NCBI GenBank assembly: GCA_017449765.1
Contig: JAFTFE010000037.1
Coordinates: 1 to 44,922 of the forward strand
Source: Lachnospiraceae bacterium
GTDB lineage: Bacteria; Bacillota; Clostridia; Lachnospirales; Lachnospiraceae
Direction: 5' to 3'
DNA length: 44,922 nt
In this document: positions 1 through 11,660 of the stretch, one piece after another
Position numbering within the stretch: the first letter of the stretch is position 1
Layout: each line of letters begins with the position of its first letter
The notes under the pieces: generated by a model
What the model saw: only the letters and a program-made list of their open reading frames with translations
Told to the model about the DNA's origin: nothing
The model's database searches: none
Made by a program: the position numbers and the translations under genes

Positions 1-531
1 CCATATGGAATGCCGCCGCAGGGAATGCCGCCACAGGGAATGCCACCGCAGGGACAAGCGCCACAGGGAATGCCACCACAGGGAGTGCGCCCGAACAATG
101 TACCGCCAATGATGGGACAGACGCCGCAGGGACAGGCGCCACAGGGAATGCCACCACAGGGAGTGCGTCTGAACAATGTACCGCCAATGATGGGACAGGC
201 ACCGCAGGGACAAGCGCCGCAGGGAATGCCACCGCAGGGAGTGCGCTCGAACAATGTACCGCCAATGATGGGACAGGCACCGCAGGGACAGGCACCGCAG
301 GGACAAGCACCACAGGGAATGCCGCCGCAGGGAGTGCGCCCGAACAATGTACCGCCAATGATGGGACAGGCGCCGCAAGGACAAGCGCCACAGGGAATGC
401 CACCGCAGGGAATGCGTCCAAACAATGTACCGCCAATTATGGGACAGGCACCGCAGGGACAAGCACCACAGGGAATGCCGCCACAGGGAGTGCGTCCGAA
501 CAATGTACCACCAATGATGGGACAGGCGCTG
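1..531 (+). repeat. In-frame GQAPQG/MPPQG repeat tract
   Basis: Six copies of a (V/M)R-x-NNVPP-(M/I)-MGQ block are separated by variable numbers of 5- to 6-residue APQGQ or MPPQG units. Copy number differs between blocks (one has an extra GQAPQ unit), which suggests slippage or recombination. The tract is coding, and its full extent upstream is not visible. Confidence 0.9.
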
Positions 532-1203
532 CAATCAAATATTAATCAGAATATAACGACACAGTCTGAGATAAAAGATGAACTCAAAGCTGAGATAGAA
601 GATAAATTAGAGGTTAAGGAAGGAGATTCAAAACCGATAGAGACACCTGAGACCAAACCGGAAGAAACAAAACCACAAGATGTACCTACATCGGTATCTA
701 TGGCTGATTTAAAGCAGGATGAGCCTGTTCCGAGTCCTGTACAGCCGGTACCAACACCGGTACAGCCGGTACCAACACCGGTACAGCCAACACCGATGCA
801 GCCAACACCGGCACCAACACCAATGCAGCCGACACCGATACCTACATCTCCATCTGCTCCTACTATGATGGGAGGTCTTGCAGGACAGCTTGGTGAGAAA
901 CCTATACCTCATTTGGTAAGGAAAAAGACCGGTGAGGTAATTAATATTACAAAACCGGAATTTACCATAGGTAAGTCTCAGTCGAATGCAGATTATACAA
1001 TAGAAGAAAATCCTGCCATAAGCAGAGTGCATTGTATTATTGTGCAGAAGAATGGTGTAAATTACATAAAGGATAATAATTCAACCAATCACACATATAT
1101 TAATGACGAGGAGCTTGAACCACAGAAAGAAGTATTGCTTAAGCACAAGACTGTTATAAAAATGGGTGATGAAGAATTCACATTTTTACTTAGGAAAGAA
1201 TAA
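1..1203 (+). CDS. FHA-domain protein with long Pro/Gln/Gly repeats (5' end outside window)
   Basis: The reading frame is open from base 1 (Pro-Tyr-Gly before the first Met), so the true N-terminus lies upstream. The visible 400 residues have three parts: a low-complexity region of MPPQG/GQAPQG repeats (to about base 530), an acidic and Pro-Thr-rich linker with VPTPVQP-type repeats, and a C-terminal forkhead-associated domain over roughly the last 95 residues. FHA hallmarks are visible: FTIGK, then SRVHC, then NNSTNHTYIN, which supply the Gly, Ser-Arg-x-x-His and Asn contacts that read phosphothreonine. There is no membrane segment in the visible part. It lies 24 bases ahead of the PP2C gene and shares its direction with the kinase, so it is probably the phospho-reader of that pathway. 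FHA assignment is firm; the binding partner is inferred. Confidence 0.88.
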   Translation, partial: PYGMPPQGMPPQGMPPQGQAPQGMPPQGVRPNNVPPMMGQTPQGQAPQGMPPQGVRLNNVPPMMGQAPQGQAPQGMPPQGVRSNNVPPMMGQAPQGQAPQGQAPQGMPPQGVRPNNVPPMMGQAPQGQAPQGMPPQGMRPNNVPPIMGQAPQGQAPQGMPPQGVRPNNVPPMMGQALQSNINQNITTQSEIKDELKAEIEDKLEVKEGDSKPIETPETKPEETKPQDVPTSVSMADLKQDEPVPSPVQPVPTPVQPVPTPVQPTPMQPTPAPTPMQPTPIPTSPSAPTMMGGLAGQLGEKPIPHLVRKKTGEVINITKPEFTIGKSQSNADYTIEENPAISRVHCIIVQKNGVNYIKDNNSTNHTYINDEELEPQKEVLLKHKTVIKMGDEEFTFLLRKE

Positions 1204-1227: not shown

Positions 1228-2004
1228 ATGAGGTACATAGCAGCTTATCATACTGATGTTGGATTAACCAAGAAGACCAATCAGGATTCACTTGGGATAA
1301 AGGTAGTTGAGACAAAATACGGTCAGGCAGCATTCGGCATAGTCTGTGACGGTATGGGTGGATTAGCTAAGGGTGAGCTTGCCAGCAAAGAGGTTATACT
1401 TGCTTTTTTAAACTGGTTCGACAGAGTATTTATAGAAGATGTGAAAAATGACGACTTTAGCGAACTTAAACTCAATGGGCAATGGGACAATATAATTCAG
1501 AATCAGAACAGAAGATTGGGTGAGTACGGAAAAGAACATCATTTTCAACTTGGAACAACAGTGTCAGCTATATTGATGTTTCAAGACAAATATTATATCG
1601 TACATGTCGGAGACAGCCGTATATATCAGTTGACGGGCAATAATGTATATCTGCTTACCAATGATCAGACCTTTATTGCAAGAGAAATCGCTGCAGGAAG
1701 AATGACACCTGAACAGGCAAAGACGGATCCAAGAAGGAGTGTTTTGCTTCAATGCGTAGGGGCATCAGATATTGTAAAACCTGATTTTGCGAGTGGAACT
1801 ATAATGTCTGATACAATCTATATGATATGCTCAGATGGTTTCAGACATCAGATTACGGAAGATGAAATGTTACAGAAGATAGGACCTATGAATGCTGTCG
1901 ATGAGAAAAAGATGAGGCAGGGGTGTGTATTCCTGACTGAATTAGTTAAGAAGAGACAGGAGTCGGATAATATAACAGTGGGACTTTTGAAGACTGTACA
2001 ATAA
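1228..2004 (+). CDS. PP2C-family Ser/Thr protein phosphatase
   Basis: A 258-residue soluble PP2C (PPM) phosphatase, the length expected for a bare catalytic domain. The metal-binding and catalytic motifs appear in order: NQDS near residue 20, CDGMGG at 40-45, GTTV with the VHVGDSR strand near 110-130, a SDGF motif, and the terminal ESDNIT Asp-Asn pair. It removes phosphate from Ser/Thr residues with two Mn/Mg ions and very likely opposes the kinase encoded 28 bases downstream. A good ribosome site (AGGAG) precedes the ATG. Nothing is missing, so it should be active. The adjacent FHA and kinase genes support a single phospho-signalling operon. Confidence 0.94.
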   Translation: MRYIAAYHTDVGLTKKTNQDSLGIKVVETKYGQAAFGIVCDGMGGLAKGELASKEVILAFLNWFDRVFIEDVKNDDFSELKLNGQWDNIIQNQNRRLGEYGKEHHFQLGTTVSAILMFQDKYYIVHVGDSRIYQLTGNNVYLLTNDQTFIAREIAAGRMTPEQAKTDPRRSVLLQCVGASDIVKPDFASGTIMSDTIYMICSDGFRHQITEDEMLQKIGPMNAVDEKKMRQGCVFLTELVKKRQESDNITVGLLKTVQ

Positions 2005-2032: not shown

Positions 2033-4228
2033 ATGACTAAGGAAGGAACCGTACTTGATGGGAAATACGAGATATGGAAGGAAGTCGGACGGGGAGGAAT
2101 GTCTATAGTTTATCTCGCCAGAGATAATCGACTTAATAAGCAATGGGCTGTCAAAGAAATAAAAAATGATGGTTCAAAATCCTCTAAGACACTTTTAAAA
2201 GGACTTGAGAGAGAGGCTAACATATTAAAAAATGTTGACCACCCCGTATTACCTCGTATAGTAGATATTATTAATCAAAGAGGAACTATCTATGTAGTTA
2301 TGGACTTCATAGAGGGCGAGACGATAAGCGACAGGCTAAAGAAGGAAGGTGCACAACCCCAGGATCTGGTGGTTGAATGGGGCATACAGCTTGCCGGTGC
2401 TTTAGATTACCTTCACAATATGAATCCGCCTGTTATCTATCGTGATATGAAGCCTTCGAATGTTATGATTAAGCCGGAAGGCGGAGTGAAGCTTATAGAT
2501 TTTGGTACGGCCAAGGAATATGATGTCGAGAATAACGCTGATACAACTGCGCTCGGAACCAGAGGATATGCTGCGCCTGAGCAGTTTGGCGACAAACAGG
2601 GACGTGGAATATATAACACCGATGCAAGAACGGATATATATAACCTTGGTGCAACTCTCTACCATATAGTCACGGGAAGTAATCCTTGTGATCCGCCTTA
2701 TGGTGTGCACCCAATCAGGGAAATGAATCCTTCATTATCATCCGGCCTTGAGAAGATACTTCTTAAATGTACCGAGGATGATCCGGCCAAAAGATATCAG
2801 AATTGTTCTGAGTTAATATATGATTTGGAACATTACACAGAATTAGATGACTCGTATAAGAAAAAGAATAAGAGAAAACTTGCTGCATTTATTACAACGA
2901 CGGTTTTGACTGTTGCGGCGGGAATTACTGCTTATATCGGATATTCCGGTCTTCAGAGTATAAAACTTAATAATTATAATACATATATAGAAGAAGGTAA
3001 CGAAGAACTCTCGGGTGAAAATAAAAACTATGCAGAAGCAGCTAAGATATATCGTGAAGCTTTTGAATTGGACGGAAGGTCGGCAGAGGCTTATGTAAAA
3101 TACATACAGACGTATATTGATGCTTCTCATGAATTGAGAGAAGACGGATCTACACCGCTTAAATTAGAAGATGGATTAAATGTAATAGCCAACAGGATAA
3201 AAGAAGGTTATGCCGGTGTTGATAAGAATGATGAAGTCTTATATAAGATGGGCATAACATATTTTGATGAGCTTAAAGATTATAAGACTGCCAATAAGTA
3301 TTTTAAGATGGTTGATGAAGACGACAAGGATTATGGAAAATTAGTATATTACTATGAAGCTGTATCGGATTATCTGTCGAGTACAAGTATAAACGAAGAT
3401 GAATTGATAGAAAAGATAGATGATTTTGCCAAGTATAATCAGACCGGATTCACCAATCAGAATGAGGACAAATTCATTAACTATAAGACAATCGGCCAGG
3501 TATATGCGACATATATAACATCTGATGGTGTTGCAGAAAAGGCAGAAGAGATAATGACTCAGGCGATGAGTGATCTTGAAGAATGCGATAGTTCCGGAAC
3601 AGAAATAGATGTAAATGATTACTATTATATATATAATGATAATCTTATTGTTATATATGAACAGCTTGCGAAAACGGCAGAAAGCGATTTGGAAAAACAT
3701 TCAAATTATGAGATGGTTATAACCTATTGTGAGGATTATCTTCTTATATTAGATATAAAGGTAGAAGAAAATGGGGAAATGACCTATGGCGGAACGAGTG
3801 ATAATGTATTCAATACAAGCTACTATAATAAAATGATGAAGATAGCATATTGTTATGAAGAGCTTGGTGAGTATGATAACGCAACAGCCACATATAAGAA
3901 ATTAGAGTCCGTATTTGGAACCAATAATGTACTTAGCAATAAGATTTATGCGGAACATTTGGATTACATATATTCTTATTGTGAGGATAAAAATCAGGAT
4001 CCGGCTAATTGGTCATCGGTCTGTCCGGGCGAATTGGCAGATTTACTTGAAGTCTATGAAGAAGGTTCCAAAGTTCCTTCTATAGACAGTAACAAGACTT
4101 GGAAGAAACGAAATGAAACGGTGGCTGCACTTGCAAGCGGAAGTATGAACATTCAGGATGAAACGTCAGATGAGGATACGGAAGCAGAGTCGGACATTGA
4201 AGAAACAAGTGAAGAGATTGGAGAGTGA
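2033..4228 (+). CDS. Membrane Ser/Thr protein kinase with C-terminal TPR-like region
   Basis: A 731-residue Hanks-type kinase. Residues 1-265 are the kinase domain: Gly loop GRGGMS at 19-24, ATP lysine K41 in WAVKEI, catalytic loop YRDMKPSN with D138, IDFG with D156, a candidate activation-loop pair T171-T172, and AAPEQF. A Lys-rich stretch (about 276-282) precedes one membrane helix (about 284-304). The rest, about 425 residues, is helical and TPR-like (YAEAAKIYREAFELDG and similar repeats) and should face outside the cell, ending in an acidic tail. PASTA repeats, the usual outer part of Firmicutes kinases, are absent. The frame ends 5 bases before the next gene, so the genes are tightly coupled. 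Kinase activity is well supported; the outside ligand is unknown. Confidence 0.94.
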   Translation: MTKEGTVLDGKYEIWKEVGRGGMSIVYLARDNRLNKQWAVKEIKNDGSKSSKTLLKGLEREANILKNVDHPVLPRIVDIINQRGTIYVVMDFIEGETISDRLKKEGAQPQDLVVEWGIQLAGALDYLHNMNPPVIYRDMKPSNVMIKPEGGVKLIDFGTAKEYDVENNADTTALGTRGYAAPEQFGDKQGRGIYNTDARTDIYNLGATLYHIVTGSNPCDPPYGVHPIREMNPSLSSGLEKILLKCTEDDPAKRYQNCSELIYDLEHYTELDDSYKKKNKRKLAAFITTTVLTVAAGITAYIGYSGLQSIKLNNYNTYIEEGNEELSGENKNYAEAAKIYREAFELDGRSAEAYVKYIQTYIDASHELREDGSTPLKLEDGLNVIANRIKEGYAGVDKNDEVLYKMGITYFDELKDYKTANKYFKMVDEDDKDYGKLVYYYEAVSDYLSSTSINEDELIEKIDDFAKYNQTGFTNQNEDKFINYKTIGQVYATYITSDGVAEKAEEIMTQAMSDLEECDSSGTEIDVNDYYYIYNDNLIVIYEQLAKTAESDLEKHSNYEMVITYCEDYLLILDIKVEENGEMTYGGTSDNVFNTSYYNKMMKIAYCYEELGEYDNATATYKKLESVFGTNNVLSNKIYAEHLDYIYSYCEDKNQDPANWSSVCPGELADLLEVYEEGSKVPSIDSNKTWKKRNETVAALASGSMNIQDETSDEDTEAESDIEETSEEIGE

Positions 4229-4233
4229 TTGCT

Positions 4234-5022
4234 ATGGAAAATATTTATCAAATATGTTTTTATGGCGGTCTGATACTCGCCATAATCCTGCTTATTGTAT
4301 CAATTATATTATTTGTTGTATTCAAGATACCGAAGGTAATAGGAGATCTGACAGGCAGAACTGCTAAGAGAGAGATTGAGCAGAAGAAAAAAGGAAGAAA
4401 AAATACTCCAAGTGAAGTCTCCAGAGCAGAGCAGAATAAGTATTATAATCAGAGTTCCGGTAAGATAAAAATACGAGAATCAGCTACAAATGATGAGATA
4501 GATAAGGACCCTGTAAAATCTAATGTTATAGCCCCGGAACGTGAGACAGACATATTACGACCGGAAGATTTGGATGAGGATGCTACAGCAGTCTTGGATT
4601 CTGTTGACAATGAAGAAGAAACGATGGTTTTGGAATCGTCTGATGAAGAAGAAACCGACGTACTCACACAAGGCGGAGTCGGAGATGACAGCCCAACCGA
4701 TGTACTCACACAGGGTGGAGTCGGAGATGACAGCCCAACTGACGTACTCACACAGGGCGGAGTCGGAGATGACTCGCCAACCGATGTACTTACACAGGGT
4801 GGAGTAGGAGATGACAGCCCGACCGATGTACTCATACAGGGTGGAGTAGGAGATGACAGCCCGACCGATGTACTCACATCGGATGAGGATGAGGAAACAA
4901 CCATATTATCGGCAGAAAGCGAAAAAGAGACAACAATACTTTCCACTGATAATAATATAAGCACAGAGGATAAAGATTACGTATACAATATCGTGATAAT
5001 AAATACAGATGAAAGCTTATAG
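4234..5022 (+). CDS. One-pass membrane protein with eleven T-x-(V/I)-L motifs
   Basis: A 262-residue protein. The ATG at 4234 is chosen because GGAGAG lies 8 bases upstream; a GTG at 4225 would sit inside that site. One membrane helix spans about residues 11-30, followed by a basic cytoplasmic-type stretch (KREIEQKKKGRK). The rest is acidic and disordered. Threonines 105, 118, 130, 141, 155, 169, 183, 197, 211, 222 and 233 each lie in T-x-(V/I)-L, mostly after an acidic residue. Six of these come from a 14-residue unit, TDVLTQGGVGDDSP. Bacterial FHA domains often prefer phosphothreonine with a hydrophobic residue at +3, so these look like kinase targets and FHA docking sites. That role is inferred; no enzymatic domain is present. 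It follows the kinase gene directly. Confidence 0.85.
   Translation: MENIYQICFYGGLILAIILLIVSIILFVVFKIPKVIGDLTGRTAKREIEQKKKGRKNTPSEVSRAEQNKYYNQSSGKIKIRESATNDEIDKDPVKSNVIAPERETDILRPEDLDEDATAVLDSVDNEEETMVLESSDEEETDVLTQGGVGDDSPTDVLTQGGVGDDSPTDVLTQGGVGDDSPTDVLTQGGVGDDSPTDVLIQGGVGDDSPTDVLTSDEDEETTILSAESEKETTILSTDNNISTEDKDYVYNIVIINTDESL
4654..4875 (+). repeat. 42-bp in-frame tandem repeat (TDVLTQGGVGDDSP)
   Basis: Five 42-base units plus a sixth TDVL start, nearly identical in protein but with synonymous differences between copies. The one amino-acid change is Thr to Ile after TDVL in the fifth unit. Each unit carries one candidate phosphothreonine. Confidence 0.93.
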
Positions 5023-5060: not shown

Positions 5061-8000
5061 ATGGAAAAACTTTGGAATAATTCAAGCAAGTTGTACAAAG
5101 TAATAGCAATTGTTCTTACTCTTATTATGGTTGTTACTCCGCTTTATATACATTTTAATAAGAGGTATGATGCGAAGGCGGCTGCACCAATTTCATTATG
5201 TGCTGTTTATCAATATGATGATGGCGGTGTACCAACATGGGCTATATTAGAGGATGAGATAGCAAAATCAGACAATAGTGTGCAATATGGTATCTGGGTT
5301 GATGATTTTTCAGATGGGATTACAAAAATTTATTATACTACAAACGGATCAGATGAACAATATTTAGATATTTCATCAACTACACAAAATGTAATAGAAG
5401 TAGCGGCAGAAGCTGATACATCGAATTATAAGGTTACAAAATATGATGATGGAGAAGGAATACATATTCTAGATGAAGCAATTCCTTTTCCTAAGCTTAT
5501 CAGGGACAATAACCCTATTTTAGGTTTAAGTGTAGCAGCTACTGTTAACGGAACAGATTTTGCCGGAAATGTTATAAACTGCAAATCAGGTGATGTGCTT
5601 GAGATTACCATAACTACAGGTTATGATTTGACAGGACTAAATATATTTGGAACAAATGTTACTGATCTTCCTGATACATATGAGGGCGGAAATTATGATA
5701 CAGACTACGTAAGAACATATAGATATACATATACGTTTAGTGGTTCTTCTAATGAAGTGTATACAAATAAAGATATTATAGCATATGATACTAAAAATCC
5801 ATCAGGTGTGACTATATCATGCAGCAGTCTTATATATGATATAAACAAACCTGTGATAACAGAAGATATTACTCCTCCGGCTACAGGATATACTTCCGGA
5901 GAAACATATACAAATTATACCTACAAATATAAAATAACATCCGGAGTGGATGATATTTCCCAAGAGTCGGAGCTTGAAGAAGCATATTATGTTATAAGCG
6001 GGGCTAAAGAAGTAACGGATAATGGCAGAGTTGATTTAAATGTACCGTCAGGTGCCAAAGAGTTTACAGGTAATATTCCGGTTCCTGTTTCAAAGACTAA
6101 CAGTGGAACAACTATTGAATTTCATGCAAAAGATAAGGCGGGGAATGAAAATACAAAAAGTATAAAAATAATTATAGATGATACTCCTCCGACTAATCCG
6201 GAAGTTAAGTATTTAAGAGGCGGAGATGAAATCTCTGCACATTCGGGTACATATTATCTAAAACCAGACGATACAATAAAAATCACCACAAGTGATAATT
6301 TCAACTTGAAAGAATTTAAAATTTACGATGGGACTACTTATAATGAAAATGATGTGCTTTGGAACAATGATAATATAAATGACACATTAGAAGAATATTC
6401 CGCTCGTCTGTATGAATTGTATAATAAAGCTACAGCGGCAGATTTATCTGATGGAAGTTATAATCTGGGAATTCGTGCATATGATTGGGCGAAAAACGGT
6501 CCGAACTATAGCTATAGTGATAGCCCTGCATCCTTTACCATAGATGGTACTGATCCACAGCAAGATGGTGATGTTGAACTTTGGTATATGGAAACCGGTA
6601 TTTTGCATCAGGTCACATCGGATATGTTGGACTCCGGTAATGTTTTTTGCTATAATTCACAAAAATATGGTGGTTTGGAATATAGGGTTAAAATAGATGA
6701 GACAAATTTTAATGCCAATACGGATATATATTTAAAGAGTAGCAACAATTCTGATAGTATAACCGGTTTTTATTCTGATGGTGGATATTATAATCATTCT
6801 ATACCTGTTGCAAATGCAACTTTGCAGCCTGTCGGCGAAGCTGTTGAATACACAATATATGTGGTAGATTATGCCGGCAATGATTTGACAATAACCGGAT
6901 TACCTAAGATATGCGTGGTAGATACGGATATAAGATTCTCTGATTTGAGTTTGAAAGATTCCGATGGACATTCTATTGCAACTGATGAGGAAAGTCTTGC
7001 AAGTATAAGTCAGTATTCAAATAAAGTTTATACTTTATCGGTAACGGTAAAATCAGGATTTGAATTGTCAACCATAAGTTTAAAATATGATGATACCTAT
7101 ACAAAAACATTAACAGAAGGTACTGACTTTAATGACAGTACGGAGGAATATACTAATCTTTATTATGCTGAGGTGGAATTTAAGATTCCTGCTGAGGAAT
7201 TAGGCGAGCTTGCAAATAAGAGATTTAACGGTATGCAGTTATATGCAGAAGATACTAGCGGAGAACATATGAGTGTAGACATTCCACTACGTATGTATGA
7301 TTCAACCAAGCCAATAGTTAGAAAAACAGATGAGACAAAGATAACAACAGATACTATTTGGCATCAATCGGTTAACTTGTCTTTTGCCATATTATCAGGT
7401 ACTGAGGGGGAAAATGAATCACCACTTGATACAGCAGGTTATACCATCTCAGGTTCAAATGATAATGATAGTAAGACTTATACCCCATCCGGACCTAAGA
7501 TTACAGATACAGTATCCATCCCTGAATCTAATAGTATAAATGGTACAGTCATTAGATTTAATGCAACGGATAAAGCGACGAATATTATGTCAGGAATGAC
7601 GGATGATCCTATTTCCTTCACCTTCAAGGTTGATGCTACCAAGCCTGTCATCAATTCCTTGACAGCAGCGGGAAATGCCGCAAATGCATTACCTTTGTCC
7701 GGTGATCCTGAGATTGCGATGAATATCAGTGATAACCTCACTTTAGACACTGCTGAATTTAGTATAACTCTTCCTGATGGTACAGTTAAGGTTTATAGCT
7801 GTAGTGGTGTAACAGGAGAGCAGCAGAATATATCGGTTGTAAAAAGTTATACGCTTTCCCGGATTCTTGGCTCAAATCCTGCTGATGGTCAGTATAAGAT
7901 TAAGCTTACCGTAAATGATAAAGCCCATAATCCTGCATCAAAAGAAATAACATTTGTATTGGATAATACACTGCCGGTATTTACTGCGGATATTGTAAGC

Positions 8001-11000
8001 GGTACATCAGGCAAGAATAACGGATTTTATAATACTGCTGTTAAGGTTAAGCTTACTGTGAAAGATGCCAACTTTAACGCTGATAAGATAAGTGTTACTG
8101 ACAATGGCTCTGAGGTAGCTCTCGATGGCGATTGGACTTTAGATAACGATGTTTATACAGCTACGGTTACAGTTGATAAGGACGCCGAGGGCTCGCACAA
8201 CATTAAGATAAGCGGTTCCGACAATGCAGGAGTTGAAGGTGTATCTAAGAATGTTTCTTTTACTGTTGATAAGACGATTCCTGAGGTTTCACTGAGTGTA
8301 AACGGAAGTACATACACTGAGGATATGGGCGTTAAATTATTCACTGATACGGTAGTTGTTAAAGCTTATGTAAGTGATACCAATGAAGATTTGGAAGATT
8401 TAAGAATAAAGGTAACCAAGACTGTGCCGGGACAGCAGGCTGTTACTTATGAATATACAGCTACATCAGAGAGAGAGTTTACTTATACTGATGAAGCTGA
8501 TTATACCATTAACTTTATTGCGGTAGATAAGGCTAATAATCAAAGCGATGTAAGAACGGTGAGATTCAAGATAGATAAAACTTTACCGGTATTTGATGCT
8601 TCGATTATAAGTGGTACATCCTCAAAGAATAATGGATATTATAATACTGCCGTTAAGGTTAAACTTACGGTAAACGAAGAAAATTTCAGTGCAGATAATA
8701 TCATTGTTACTGATAATGGCACGGAAATAACTGTTGATGATGGATGGTCGAAAGAGGACGGAGTATATGCAGCGACAGTTACTGTTGCTGATACTGCTGA
8801 AGGTATTCATAATATAAAAATCAGTGGAGTGGATATTGCAGGACTTGAAGGAGTTTCTAAGAAAATATCATTTACCATTGATAAGACAGTACCTGAAGTT
8901 GAACTTACCGTAAATGGAAGTATATACCTTGAGAATATGGGAGTTCAGTATGAGAGCGGAACTGTTACTGTCAAGGCGGCTGTTAAAGATACTAATGAGG
9001 ATTCGGAAGATTTGAGAATTCAGGTTATAAAGACTGTACCGGGACAGAAGACAACTTCTACTGAATATATTTCGACTGCATTCAGGGAATTTACATATAC
9101 TGATGAAGCAGATTATACTATTAATTTTATAGCAGTAGATAAAGCCGGTAATTCAAGTGTGGTAAGAACTGCAAGATTCAATATAGATAACACAGCTCCG
9201 GCACTTGAAGCTGATATTGTCAATGGCACATCTGTAAAGAATAATGGTTTTTATAACTCGGCAGTACAGGTTAGACTTTCGGTAAAGGAAGATAACTTTA
9301 ATGCAGATGAAATGGTCGTTACGGATAATGGTAGTGAGATTGCACTTGATGGCGGCTGGACATTAAAAGACGGCATACGTACAGCTACAGTTACAATTCC
9401 GGAAACCTCCGAAGGTACTCATAATATTAGAATAAGCGGAGTTGATAAAGCAGGTGTAAAGGGTGTTTCCAATGATGCTTCATTTACTATTGATAAGACA
9501 ATCCCTGAGGTGGAATTAAGTTTAGACGAAAATCCATATAATGAGAGCATGGGAGTTCAATACAGGCATGGTAATGTTGTCATCAGGGCATCTGTAAAGG
9601 ATACAAACGAGGATGCAGGAGACTTAAGAGTACAGGTTATAAAGACTGTACCGGGACAGGAGACAACGATTTCCGAATACTATCCTACATCTGACAGAGA
9701 ATTTATTTATACTGATGAGGCAGAGTATGCAATTAATTTTGTAGCTGTGGATAAAGCAAATAATCAAAGTGTGGTTAGAACTGTAAGATTTATTATAGAT
9801 ACAACAGCACCTGAACTTGATATCAATTTAATTGCGGGTACATCCGGCAAACAAAATAACTGTTATAATTCAGATGTTGTTGTAAGACTTACGTGTGTAG
9901 ATAATAATTTGAATCCTGACTCGTTATTTGTTACCGATAATAACTATCCGATAAATGTTAATTGGACAGCTGATGGTTCAAGCTATTATGCGGACGTTAC
10001 ATTTTCATCTGAAGGTGAGCATACTGTCGTGGTTAGTGCGTCAGATAAATCGGGAACATCGGGAGCTGCAAAGCAGATACAGTTTATAATTGATAAGACG
10101 GCACCAACTGTTGCACTCCTGTTAAATGGAGGAACTATTTATAATGAGAGTATGGGAACTCTTAATCTGACCGGACCGGCTAATATAAATATATCTGTAA
10201 CAGATAATAATGATGATCTTGAAGATTTGAGAGTTCAGGTAATTAAAACTGTACCGGATTCAGAGACAATAACTACAGAATATATGCCGACTTCAAATAG
10301 ATTATTAAGTTTTTCGGATGAGGCGGATTATGTCATTAACTTATATGCAGTTGACCGGGCTAATAATCAAAGTGTTATAAGGACAATAAGTTTTCGTATT
10401 GATACAACTGCACCGACACTTACCATTTCAGGAGCCGATGGAGGAACATCTTCAAATGCGGTATCGGTAGGTTTCAACATTACTGAAAGCTTCTGGCAGG
10501 ATGCAACAGGTACTGTAACTATTTACAGAAAGGCAGGAGACGGTCAGGAGGAAGCGCTTTATAAGACTCTTACCATAACGCCTAATCAAAGAGTGTTTAC
10601 TCTGTCGGAGCTTCTCTCCGATACAGGTGTGTATAGATTTGAATTCGAAGCAAGAGACAGAGTCGGACATACTACAAAGACGGAACAATCTATTACGGTT
10701 GATAGAAATAAACCTGAGATAAAACTTACAGGTGTAAATAATTATGATGTCACGGATGGATTTGTAAATGTATCGGTTACTGTATCGGATGAGTTCTTCT
10801 CAAGTAAGACTGTATCTGCAACGGGAACTGTCATAAGGCCTGATGGAACGAAAAATGCAGTAAGATTTTCTCCGTTCCTTGCATCAGGTAATCCTACAAC
10901 CATTGAGCAGACTTTCTCTGAGGATGGTATATATGACATCACAATCCTGTCAAGAGATATAGCAGGTAATGAGTCTTCTTACAGCGTTCATTTTACTATA

Positions 11001-11660
11001 GATACTACGGCGCCTGTTATCAAGGATTTATCGGAATTTGACGGAAAGACCTTTAATTCTATTGACCTTGATTTAGATCTTGATGAGTTTGTATCCGATC
11101 TTACCGTATGTAATGTGCGTATGTACTTAAACGGTAGTGAATATGACGGTGTTTCAGATATTGAAGATGGTTCATATACGCTGCTTATAACTGCTGAGGA
11201 TGAGCTTGGACATAAGAGCGAGCAAAGCGCAACTTTCGTACTTGACACTAAAGCACCGGTATTCATTGTAACAGGTGTTGAAGATGGAGATGTTAAAGAA
11301 GAAAATTACGACATCGAGATTTCATTACAGCTTGATGAGGATATGCTTACAAGTGTTAAGTTAAATGACAAAGACGTACTTCTTAGTAACAATAATAAGA
11401 CAGCCACTCTCAAGGTAACCGACAGAGGAGTATATGAACTCTATATGGCGGCTGTTGACCCTGCCGGAAATGAGGCTGAACAGACCATAAGCTTTGTATA
11501 TGGTGATGAAGAAATGGCGGAAGCGGCAGCGGAAGCTGATTCAGTAATTAAGACTGAAGGTAAATCAGCGAGATGGTGGTTGTGGATTATAGCCGCAGCA
11601 GCAATCCTGGGCGGAGGCGGATTCATATTTATTCTGCTCAAGAGAAGAAAGAGTGAGTAA
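5061..11660 (+). CDS. Giant surface protein with bacterial Ig-like repeats
   Basis: A 2199-residue protein. Residues 12-31 form a hydrophobic signal or anchor followed by a possible cleavage site near DAKAAA. The body is built from many Ig-like modules whose joints read F-x-(I/V)-D-x-T-x-P, with the recurrent phrase AVDKANNQS. Four large units of about 204 residues lie at 7962-10400. Residues about 2167-2191 are a second membrane helix, followed by a short basic tail (LKRRKSE). There is no LPXTG sorting signal, so anchoring should be by the membrane helix. It is probably an elongated surface stalk or adhesin; the ligand is unknown. It is the last gene of the kinase cassette, 38 bases after the previous gene, with GGAAGGAG upstream, and a terminator follows. 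Confidence 0.9.
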   Translation: MEKLWNNSSKLYKVIAIVLTLIMVVTPLYIHFNKRYDAKAAAPISLCAVYQYDDGGVPTWAILEDEIAKSDNSVQYGIWVDDFSDGITKIYYTTNGSDEQYLDISSTTQNVIEVAAEADTSNYKVTKYDDGEGIHILDEAIPFPKLIRDNNPILGLSVAATVNGTDFAGNVINCKSGDVLEITITTGYDLTGLNIFGTNVTDLPDTYEGGNYDTDYVRTYRYTYTFSGSSNEVYTNKDIIAYDTKNPSGVTISCSSLIYDINKPVITEDITPPATGYTSGETYTNYTYKYKITSGVDDISQESELEEAYYVISGAKEVTDNGRVDLNVPSGAKEFTGNIPVPVSKTNSGTTIEFHAKDKAGNENTKSIKIIIDDTPPTNPEVKYLRGGDEISAHSGTYYLKPDDTIKITTSDNFNLKEFKIYDGTTYNENDVLWNNDNINDTLEEYSARLYELYNKATAADLSDGSYNLGIRAYDWAKNGPNYSYSDSPASFTIDGTDPQQDGDVELWYMETGILHQVTSDMLDSGNVFCYNSQKYGGLEYRVKIDETNFNANTDIYLKSSNNSDSITGFYSDGGYYNHSIPVANATLQPVGEAVEYTIYVVDYAGNDLTITGLPKICVVDTDIRFSDLSLKDSDGHSIATDEESLASISQYSNKVYTLSVTVKSGFELSTISLKYDDTYTKTLTEGTDFNDSTEEYTNLYYAEVEFKIPAEELGELANKRFNGMQLYAEDTSGEHMSVDIPLRMYDSTKPIVRKTDETKITTDTIWHQSVNLSFAILSGTEGENESPLDTAGYTISGSNDNDSKTYTPSGPKITDTVSIPESNSINGTVIRFNATDKATNIMSGMTDDPISFTFKVDATKPVINSLTAAGNAANALPLSGDPEIAMNISDNLTLDTAEFSITLPDGTVKVYSCSGVTGEQQNISVVKSYTLSRILGSNPADGQYKIKLTVNDKAHNPASKEITFVLDNTLPVFTADIVSGTSGKNNGFYNTAVKVKLTVKDANFNADKISVTDNGSEVALDGDWTLDNDVYTATVTVDKDAEGSHNIKISGSDNAGVEGVSKNVSFTVDKTIPEVSLSVNGSTYTEDMGVKLFTDTVVVKAYVSDTNEDLEDLRIKVTKTVPGQQAVTYEYTATSEREFTYTDEADYTINFIAVDKANNQSDVRTVRFKIDKTLPVFDASIISGTSSKNNGYYNTAVKVKLTVNEENFSADNIIVTDNGTEITVDDGWSKEDGVYAATVTVADTAEGIHNIKISGVDIAGLEGVSKKISFTIDKTVPEVELTVNGSIYLENMGVQYESGTVTVKAAVKDTNEDSEDLRIQVIKTVPGQKTTSTEYISTAFREFTYTDEADYTINFIAVDKAGNSSVVRTARFNIDNTAPALEADIVNGTSVKNNGFYNSAVQVRLSVKEDNFNADEMVVTDNGSEIALDGGWTLKDGIRTATVTIPETSEGTHNIRISGVDKAGVKGVSNDASFTIDKTIPEVELSLDENPYNESMGVQYRHGNVVIRASVKDTNEDAGDLRVQVIKTVPGQETTISEYYPTSDREFIYTDEAEYAINFVAVDKANNQSVVRTVRFIIDTTAPELDINLIAGTSGKQNNCYNSDVVVRLTCVDNNLNPDSLFVTDNNYPINVNWTADGSSYYADVTFSSEGEHTVVVSASDKSGTSGAAKQIQFIIDKTAPTVALLLNGGTIYNESMGTLNLTGPANINISVTDNNDDLEDLRVQVIKTVPDSETITTEYMPTSNRLLSFSDEADYVINLYAVDRANNQSVIRTISFRIDTTAPTLTISGADGGTSSNAVSVGFNITESFWQDATGTVTIYRKAGDGQEEALYKTLTITPNQRVFTLSELLSDTGVYRFEFEARDRVGHTTKTEQSITVDRNKPEIKLTGVNNYDVTDGFVNVSVTVSDEFFSSKTVSATGTVIRPDGTKNAVRFSPFLASGNPTTIEQTFSEDGIYDITILSRDIAGNESSYSVHFTIDTTAPVIKDLSEFDGKTFNSIDLDLDLDEFVSDLTVCNVRMYLNGSEYDGVSDIEDGSYTLLITAEDELGHKSEQSATFVLDTKAPVFIVTGVEDGDVKEENYDIEISLQLDEDMLTSVKLNDKDVLLSNNNKTATLKVTDRGVYELYMAAVDPAGNEAEQTISFVYGDEEMAEAAAEADSVIKTEGKSARWWLWIIAAAAILGGGGFIFILLKRRKSE
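7962..10400 (+). repeat. Four tandem units of 612/612/612/603 bp in the Ig-repeat gene
   Basis: Unit starts are marked by the D-(N/K/T)-T-x-P joint followed by GTS-x-K-x-N near bases 7962, 8574, 9186 and 9798, with the next joint at 10401. Each unit holds two Ig-like modules: one with VTDNG and one with KTVPGQ (PD in the last copy) and TDEADY. The first three units have exactly the same length; the fourth is three codons shorter and more diverged. Confidence 0.9.

Follow-up and report, generated by a model that had tools for sequence, protein, structure and literature searches.

FHA domains are specific for phosphothreonine, and in eukaryotic DNA repair the multivalent phosphothreonine arrays of MDC1 are read by FHA proteins. 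Genes for kinases, phosphatases and FHA proteins also lie beside several new T7SS subtypes, where regulation by threonine phosphorylation has been raised as a possibility (PMC11217815). T7SSe includes the set TseJ-TseF-TseD-TseH/TseK-TseI, which provides kinase, PPM phosphatase, DUF6382-FHA, single-helix and Ig proteins (Garrett, Higginson and Palmer 2024, PMC11217815), and it further possesses a ubiquitin-like component (PMC11217815). Individual FHA ligands have been delineated in other bacteria: the self-ligands of DgcB, GarA and OdhI share hydrophobic residues at +2 and +3, a Glu at -2 and a hydrophobic residue at -3 (PMC6733907), the GarA/OdhI peptide is built on an ETTSVF core, i.e. T-S-V-F (PMC8546545), and the PknA-dependent motif of mycobacteria displays acidic residues at -1 and from -3 to -6, Leu or Val at +3, and Pro at -1 and +2 (PMC7164672).

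The window analyzed here, a stretch of 44,922 nucleotides from a Lachnospiraceae bacterium, contains an operon of similar composition, including a small membrane protein that bears eleven threonines in the context T-x-(V/I)-L and is referred to below as the array protein. Comparison with its relatives makes it likely that this protein tethers FHA proteins to the membrane in a multivalent and phospho-switchable manner, within a module that is not tied to T7SS.

Gene content of the locus

A preliminary description of this DNA had placed a single-pass membrane protein with no other visible domain alongside a kinase, a phosphatase and an FHA protein. This arrangement is borne out by the features of the locus, given here with the basis for each:

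1..1203, + strand: FHA-domain protein with its FHA domain at 964-1167 and its N-terminus cut off by the contig start (Pfam)
1228..2004, + strand: PP2C/PPM-type protein phosphatase, TseF-like (PF13672 over cut-off)
2033..4228, + strand: Ser/Thr kinase, kinase domain to about 2860, then a hydrophobic helix and, after it, a TPR-like region, TseD-like (PF00069, 152 bits)
4234..5022, + strand: array protein, single-pass membrane protein of 262 aa (TseH/TseK-like by position and topology)
4258..4326, + strand: transmembrane helix, approximately residues 9-31, predicted N-out/C-in (sequence; positive-inside rule)
4324..4380, + strand: conserved juxtamembrane segment KIPxVxGDLTGxTAxKxIE (family alignment)
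4546..4941, + strand: acidic tail of low complexity, bearing the 11 T-x-(V/I)-L sites (sequence)
4654..4863, + strand: five full 42-bp (14-aa) units TDVL(T/I)QGGVGDDSP (tandem repeat, codon comparison)
4981..5019, + strand: C-terminal tail of the family, I..I..(I/V)HT(D/E)E.(I/L) (homologue comparison)
5061..11660, + strand: giant Ig-like protein of 2199 residues, with a hydrophobic segment close to each end, TseI-like (Ig models, Big_13 among them)

The mechanically called ORF of the array protein starts upstream at GTG 4225, and its length of 262 aa is counted from the ATG. The protein presents a single strongly hydrophobic helix followed by a basic stretch, and it has no match in Pfam-A, NCBIfam or PADLOC. 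In 118 of the 120 family members, Lys and Arg residues flanking the helix number 77 before it and 230 after it (equal lengths of at most 15 residues on each side), with more after the helix in 94 proteins, equal numbers in 19 and fewer in 5, an excess from which the tail is predicted to face the cytoplasm. The C-terminal pattern is recognizable, in a loose form, in 88 of the 120 homologues, several without an array among them. FHA docking accounts for neither this C-terminal tail nor the juxtamembrane segment.

The window's phosphatase scores under the cut-off of the NCBIfam Stp1 model. Its FHA protein, truncated by the contig start, holds no T-x-(V/I)-L site in the sequenced part. Elsewhere in the genome, the end of contig C165 carries a DUF6382-FHA gene (DUF6382 at 50.7 bits; DUF6382 and FHA both over cut-off), followed by a DUF6382-like N-terminus that ends in an MPPQG repeat, the same repeat found at the start of the window. 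Reading across this contig gap, it is likely that two FHA genes stand in tandem upstream of the array protein. Were C165 to adjoin, the window's FHA protein would bear DUF6382 at 19.6 bits against a cut-off of 26.7, the two contigs being unjoined. Three FHA domains in the genome exceed the cut-off, with the third FHA gene located on contig C182. Here the assembly breaks off at the proline-rich MPPQG repeat of the FHA protein (window 1-533; end of locus L069), and the contigs of two relatives (L042, L045) likewise stop within the corresponding FHA gene.

Distribution and gene order of the family

A profile built from 21 members locates the array-protein family in 77 of 396 genomes of the Lachnospiraceae family, representing 62 of 280 genera, in 11 of 391 genomes from a class-wide draw (four outside this family) and in 5 of 398 genomes from a phylum-wide draw (two outside it). 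Loci with named hosts include those of Mobilisporobacter senegalensis, Pseudoruminococcus massiliensis and Clostridium lacusfryxellense. The 131 loci scanned gave 120 distinct proteins matching at 1e-9 or better, with 5 duplicates and 6 weaker matches (L117, L131, L137, L150, L162 and L172) left out; loci L065-L070 are outside this set. Alignment shows that the relatives have in common the helix and the juxtamembrane segment.

Around these genes, with ORFs and labels assigned by our own scripts and each denominator restricted to loci with enough sequence, the order is well conserved. The kinase is directly upstream of the array protein in 116 of 118 loci, at a median gap of 5 bases, a PP2C gene lies within 3 kb in 110/115, and in 89/105 a gene whose product exceeds 700 residues lies within 1.2 kb downstream. 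Of 95 loci, 67 have an FHA gene no further than 6.5 kb away and the other 28 have none in that range. FHA genes are common in the Lachnospiraceae family regardless of the array protein, and they are present in all 80 genomes examined with it compared to 67 of 80 without it (Fisher p 0.00014, uncorrected for kinship). The former were taken from 85 genomes, leaving out G136, G147, G750, G780 and G530 as weak, odd or surplus matches; the latter were taken from the 396-genome set by handle number, with matching genomes excluded.

Relation to T7SSe

The window's operon has in common with T7SSe (and T7SSd/T7SSj) a membrane Ser/Thr kinase, a PPM phosphatase, a protein whose one helix is joined to a short cytoplasmic portion without structure, and a giant Ig-like protein with a C-terminal helix (PMC11217815), a correspondence that the preliminary description had missed. 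Its FHA protein is a candidate counterpart of TseJ, the DUF6382-FHA protein of that set (PMC11217815), given the DUF6382 scores noted above. The hydrophobic helix after the kinase domain is a TseD feature, the PF13672 phosphatase a feature of TseF, and the Ig models in 5061-11660 a feature of TseI, while the array protein corresponds to TseH/TseK by topology and gene position, its likeness to the published proteins being by description only. A small hydrophobic protein of 145-168 aa, which has no Pfam match in its L058 copy, follows the array protein at L046, L052, L058 and L063, before the giant protein where this is seen, and may be the other of TseH/TseK.

Not detected in the window's genome are two further features of T7SSe, an EssC-type ATPase over the cut-off and a WXG100 protein. 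For TseC, the EssC-type ATPase, the best TIGR03928 match in this genome reaches 107 bits against a cut-off of 778 and is the same 886-aa ORF that gives the FtsK/SpoIIIE match; for the WXG100 proteins TseA and TseA2, no PF06013 match was obtained in G000, G236 or G770. The operon is not classed as T7SSe because these two defining features were sought and not found. In the wider family, EssC (TIGR03928) is over the cut-off in 38 of the 80 genomes with an array protein and in none of the matches of the other 42, the window's included, or 40 if G095 and G370, whose matches are weaker, are counted as having EssC; WXG100 (PF06013) is present in 39 of the 80 at E 0.001, 36 of them over the cut-off. 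Since EssC over the cut-off is missing from 42 of the 80 genomes, among them the three examined from the window's genus, the signalling module is not bound to T7SS.

It could still be that the array protein is a TseH/TseK serving secretion only, with the T7SSe apparatus unseen or lost here. The shared component set is in keeping with this explanation, as are the 16 of 83 loci that have EssC within 25 kb and the 26/83 whose genome encodes it at another place, with EssC-like fragments at 8-10 kb from two more, L059 (counted as elsewhere) and L155 in G760 (counted as without). It is nonetheless unlikely, given that 41/83 loci belong to genomes counted without EssC, and that the window's genome and two congeners have neither EssC over the cut-off nor WXG100, yet encode arrays of 11, 8 and 15 sites.

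Two other associations were considered. At L057, TadE-like and DUF5702 genes (Tad-pilus type, by Pfam) are found just upstream of the operon, and similar-looking genes were noted by eye upstream at L049, L051, L055 and L064, which suggests a link to Tad-type pili. A role in anti-phage defence was rejected, as PADLOC gave only kinase-type matches and one PP2C-type match among the matches listed.

The T-x-(V/I)-L array

The motif threonines of the window's array protein are residues 105, 118, 130, 141, 155, 169, 183, 197, 211, 222 and 233. Shuffled tails contain a mean of 0.22 such sites and a maximum of 3 (5000 shuffles) against the 11 observed, and with the repeat collapsed to a single unit 7 sites are left where 0.14 are expected. 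Six of the threonines, at residues 141-211, are spaced at exactly 14 residues. Among the five full repeat units, 9 codons are variable, of which 8 differ silently and 1 is replacing, a T to I change beside the TDVL core. The preliminary description, which counted eleven threonines in this context and traced six of them to a 14-residue repeat with only one substitution, was correct on each point, the last holding at the level of protein. Differences between repeat units that are biased in this way toward silent changes are the trace that protein-level selection after duplication would be expected to leave. Chance or plain repeat drift as the origin of the array is ruled out by the shuffles, these silent differences and the serine control described below.

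Selection on the motif is specific for threonine across the family, in counts that correct only in part for relatedness. In 114 family linkers, T-x-(V/I)-L is observed 373 times against 9.4 expected, and S-x-(V/I)-L is at chance, with 8 observed against 8.2 expected; this count omits 6 of the 120 linkers, which are shorter than 20 residues and hold no strict motif. The same result is seen with 113 representatives (360 against 9.2 for threonine; 8 against 7.4 for serine), in which 302 of the 360 motif copies have flanks that are distinct within their own protein. With 347 distinct 12-mers around the motif, the flanks diverge and the core stays. When Leu or Ala is also allowed at +2, the threonine form rises to 465 against 23.6 expected and the serine form is found 11 times against 20.0. 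Position +1 of the motif is mostly Asp, Thr or Glu, +2 is Val (83%) or Ile and +3 is Leu, preceded by an acidic flank in which Glu and Asp make up 40%, 53%, 54% and at least 41% of residues at -4, -3, -2 and -1, respectively. This threonine-only selection is what a phosphothreonine-specific FHA reader would be expected to impose.

In 32 of the 120 proteins, at least three T-x-(V/I/L/A)-L sites follow one another at even spacing, with 13 different periods and spacers that are mostly different, and from this the arrays seem to have been expanded repeatedly around one core. Homologues that keep the helix but lose the motifs, named in the preliminary description as evidence that would count against a docking function, form only a minority: 96 of the 120 contain the strict motif and 24 do not, and 111 contain the relaxed T-x-(V/I/L/A)-L, the nine without it all being short proteins of 71-145 aa. 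In the homologue at L129, eight T-x-L-L sites in 11-residue units take the place of T-x-V-L; this locus has EssC within 25 kb, and its array possibly reflects a matched change of reader specificity.

The counts do not support the motif as a general trait of these loci. The PP2C proteins contain it at chance (23 against 23.3 expected, n=116), and the unlabelled ORFs of more than 1100 aa, of which 83 of 104 are directly downstream of the array protein, fall below chance (98 against 121.9, n=104); the kinases have a mild excess (57 against 40.3, n=124). The serine control behaves oddly in the PP2C proteins, where S-x-(V/I)-L is observed 66 times against 21.1 expected (116 proteins), probably as a result of a conserved position in the fold.

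The same motif in FHA proteins

FHA proteins encoded at these loci bear the same motif ahead of their FHA domain. Across 81 such proteins, the 200-residue stretch leading up to the domain contains T-x-(V/I)-L 68 times against 5.1 expected, and the serine form 3 times against 5.5; the 81 are those encoded 2.0-3.5 kb upstream, the remaining 27 of 108 distinct FHA proteins being outside that range. Most of these motifs (58/68) sit 12-35 residues ahead of the domain, often as paired GETTVL-like sites. The more motifs the array protein has, the fewer are found in the FHA linker (Spearman -0.46, n 81, uncorrected for kinship). Eubacterium sp. MSJ-21 (L177) has a long array, and in Mobilisporobacter senegalensis (L208) it is the FHA protein that bears the motifs. 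Motif loss in the array protein, counted by hand, has no clear tie to a local FHA gene, occurring in 4 of 67 loci with one and 4 of 28 loci without.

The FHA domains themselves have nearly invariant S-R-x-H and N-x-T motifs (38 aligned relatives), while the position after the first Gly, typically Arg (GR), is occupied by Lys (GK) in 85 of 92 proteins with a readable pattern, out of 111 examined. The solved FHA domains closest in sequence include ArnA and DgcB. At L052 (5541-7115), the FHA protein consists of a trypsin-like protease (PF13365), a hydrophobic segment, ATTVL/ETTVL sites and then the FHA domain, and it would seem to be a protease located outside the cytoplasm and connected to the same motif code.

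An alternative role for the array is that of a kinase docking site, or of a phospho-sink that buffers or reports kinase/phosphatase activity, for which FHA binding would not be needed. Ser/Thr kinases of such kind generally accept serine too, and here threonine is required; the same motif also adjoins the FHA domain in the FHA proteins of relatives, and all 80 genomes with an array protein have FHA genes. These observations make the alternative quite unlikely, despite the steadier company of the kinase (116/118 loci, compared to 67/95 for a local FHA gene) and the resemblance of the acidic flank and the Leu at +3 to a bacterial kinase substrate motif (PMC7164672).

It is more doubtful still that T-x-(V/I)-L is a short linear motif independent of phosphorylation, such as a SUMO-interacting-like β-strand that docks a ubiquitin-like T7SS protein. 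The acidic flank and V-L core do look like SUMO-interacting-type motifs, but these usually have Val or Ile at the first position, and in the x-x-(V/I)-L sequences of all 120 linkers this position is Thr in 373 of 404 and Val in 2. The ubiquitin-like component of T7SSe (PMC11217815) favours such a partner, but EssC over the cut-off is lacking in the 42 genomes noted above, the window's among them, and WXG100 is lacking here too. Neutral low-complexity repeat expansion, to which the 42-bp tandem repeat and its variable repeat number might point, is hardly conceivable against the 8 silent to 1 replacing differences between units, the persistence of the core with differing spacers and periods in 32/120 proteins, and threonine-only selection.

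Proposed function of the module

As a tether for FHA proteins, the array protein would be phosphorylated by the adjoining kinase at the T-x-(V/I)-L threonines in its cytoplasmic tail. Through their FHA domains, the FHA proteins of the operon would then bind phosphothreonine together with the hydrophobic +2 and +3 residues, with avidity, and the PP2C would reverse phosphorylation of the array. In the wider family, FHA proteins could bind either their own motif, in the style of GarA and OdhI, or the membrane array. As output, FHA proteins would cluster beneath the membrane when the array is phosphorylated, next to the kinase and to the giant Ig surface protein, the latter being, by gene order, the best guess for what is assembled.

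The preliminary description had already proposed a phosphothreonine array for FHA proteins, and this has gained strong comparative support from threonine-only selection, from diverging flanks around a kept core, from the constant position of the kinase and from the GarA-like motif in the FHA proteins of relatives; its phosphorylation and binding steps stand as predictions. By analogy with the PknA-dependent motif, which it matches in part, the site could be shared by kinase and reader. Because known motifs are matched in part and not in full, confidence in the tether was lowered slightly, and it is still considered likely. A broader proposal is possible but tentative, namely that this is a stand-alone system in which kinase and phosphatase toggle the array, gather FHA proteins in a cluster or condensate and thereby control the giant Ig surface protein, with T7SSe as an adopter rather than the origin.

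The threonine-only T-x-(V/I)-L code, found both on the membrane array and before FHA domains, is proposed as the phosphothreonine ligand of the module, and the 42 of 80 genomes that have an array protein and lack EssC over the cut-off set the module apart from secretion. If the tether functions as proposed, multivalent docking of FHA proteins would have a simple natural example in Gram-positive bacteria. The motif also gives exact candidate peptides for work on FHA ligands.

Comparison with known FHA switches

The only literature on such an operon, among the matches listed, is PMC11217815; subscription papers and preprints lie outside this search and an earlier description is possible. The available excerpts of the T7SSe description name neither an array, nor the T-x-(V/I)-L motif, nor a phosphothreonine ligand (PMC11217815).

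GarA and OdhI are alike in carrying a T-x-V-(hydrophobic) motif on the N-terminal side of the FHA domain that is phosphorylated by a Ser/Thr kinase (PMC8546545), and many FHA proteins of the present loci carry GETTVL similarly. They differ in that the motif is bound intramolecularly and the targets are metabolic enzymes, whereas here many copies are presented on a separate membrane protein. Against the OdhI equivalog model, the best of three FHA proteins scanned scores 23.6 bits against a cut-off of 200 bits, and the window's FHA protein has no match. DgcB of Bdellovibrio is also similar, with an FHA domain that takes as ligand a phosphothreonine of the protein's N-terminal tail, with hydrophobic residues at +2 and +3, but it has one site and is a c-di-GMP synthase (PMC6733907). 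The hydrophobic -3 residue of DgcB, and of the self-ligands described with it (PMC6733907), is missing from the array motif, which mostly has Glu or Asp at that position instead. The PknA-dependent motif (PMC7164672) is alike in its acidic flank and in Leu at +3, and differs in that the array has Val or Ile at +2, not Pro.

The arrays of MDC1 resemble this one in their repeated threonine sites recruiting FHA proteins (see also the related paper PMC11884936), a likeness to a eukaryotic system for which no homology is claimed. In the T6SS of a Gram-negative bacterium, the kinase PpkA phosphorylates the membrane protein TssL at Thr14 and the FHA protein Fha is recruited, the difference being that a single site on another membrane protein is used rather than an array (PMC3953482). 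PpkA and Fha condensates of Acidovorax citrulli likewise cluster a kinase and an FHA protein at the membrane and recruit components, the available excerpts describing no repeat scaffold protein (PMC12607579). Through these two examples, the logic proposed for the array protein, of a kinase that gathers FHA proteins at the membrane, already exists elsewhere (PMC3953482; PMC12607579).
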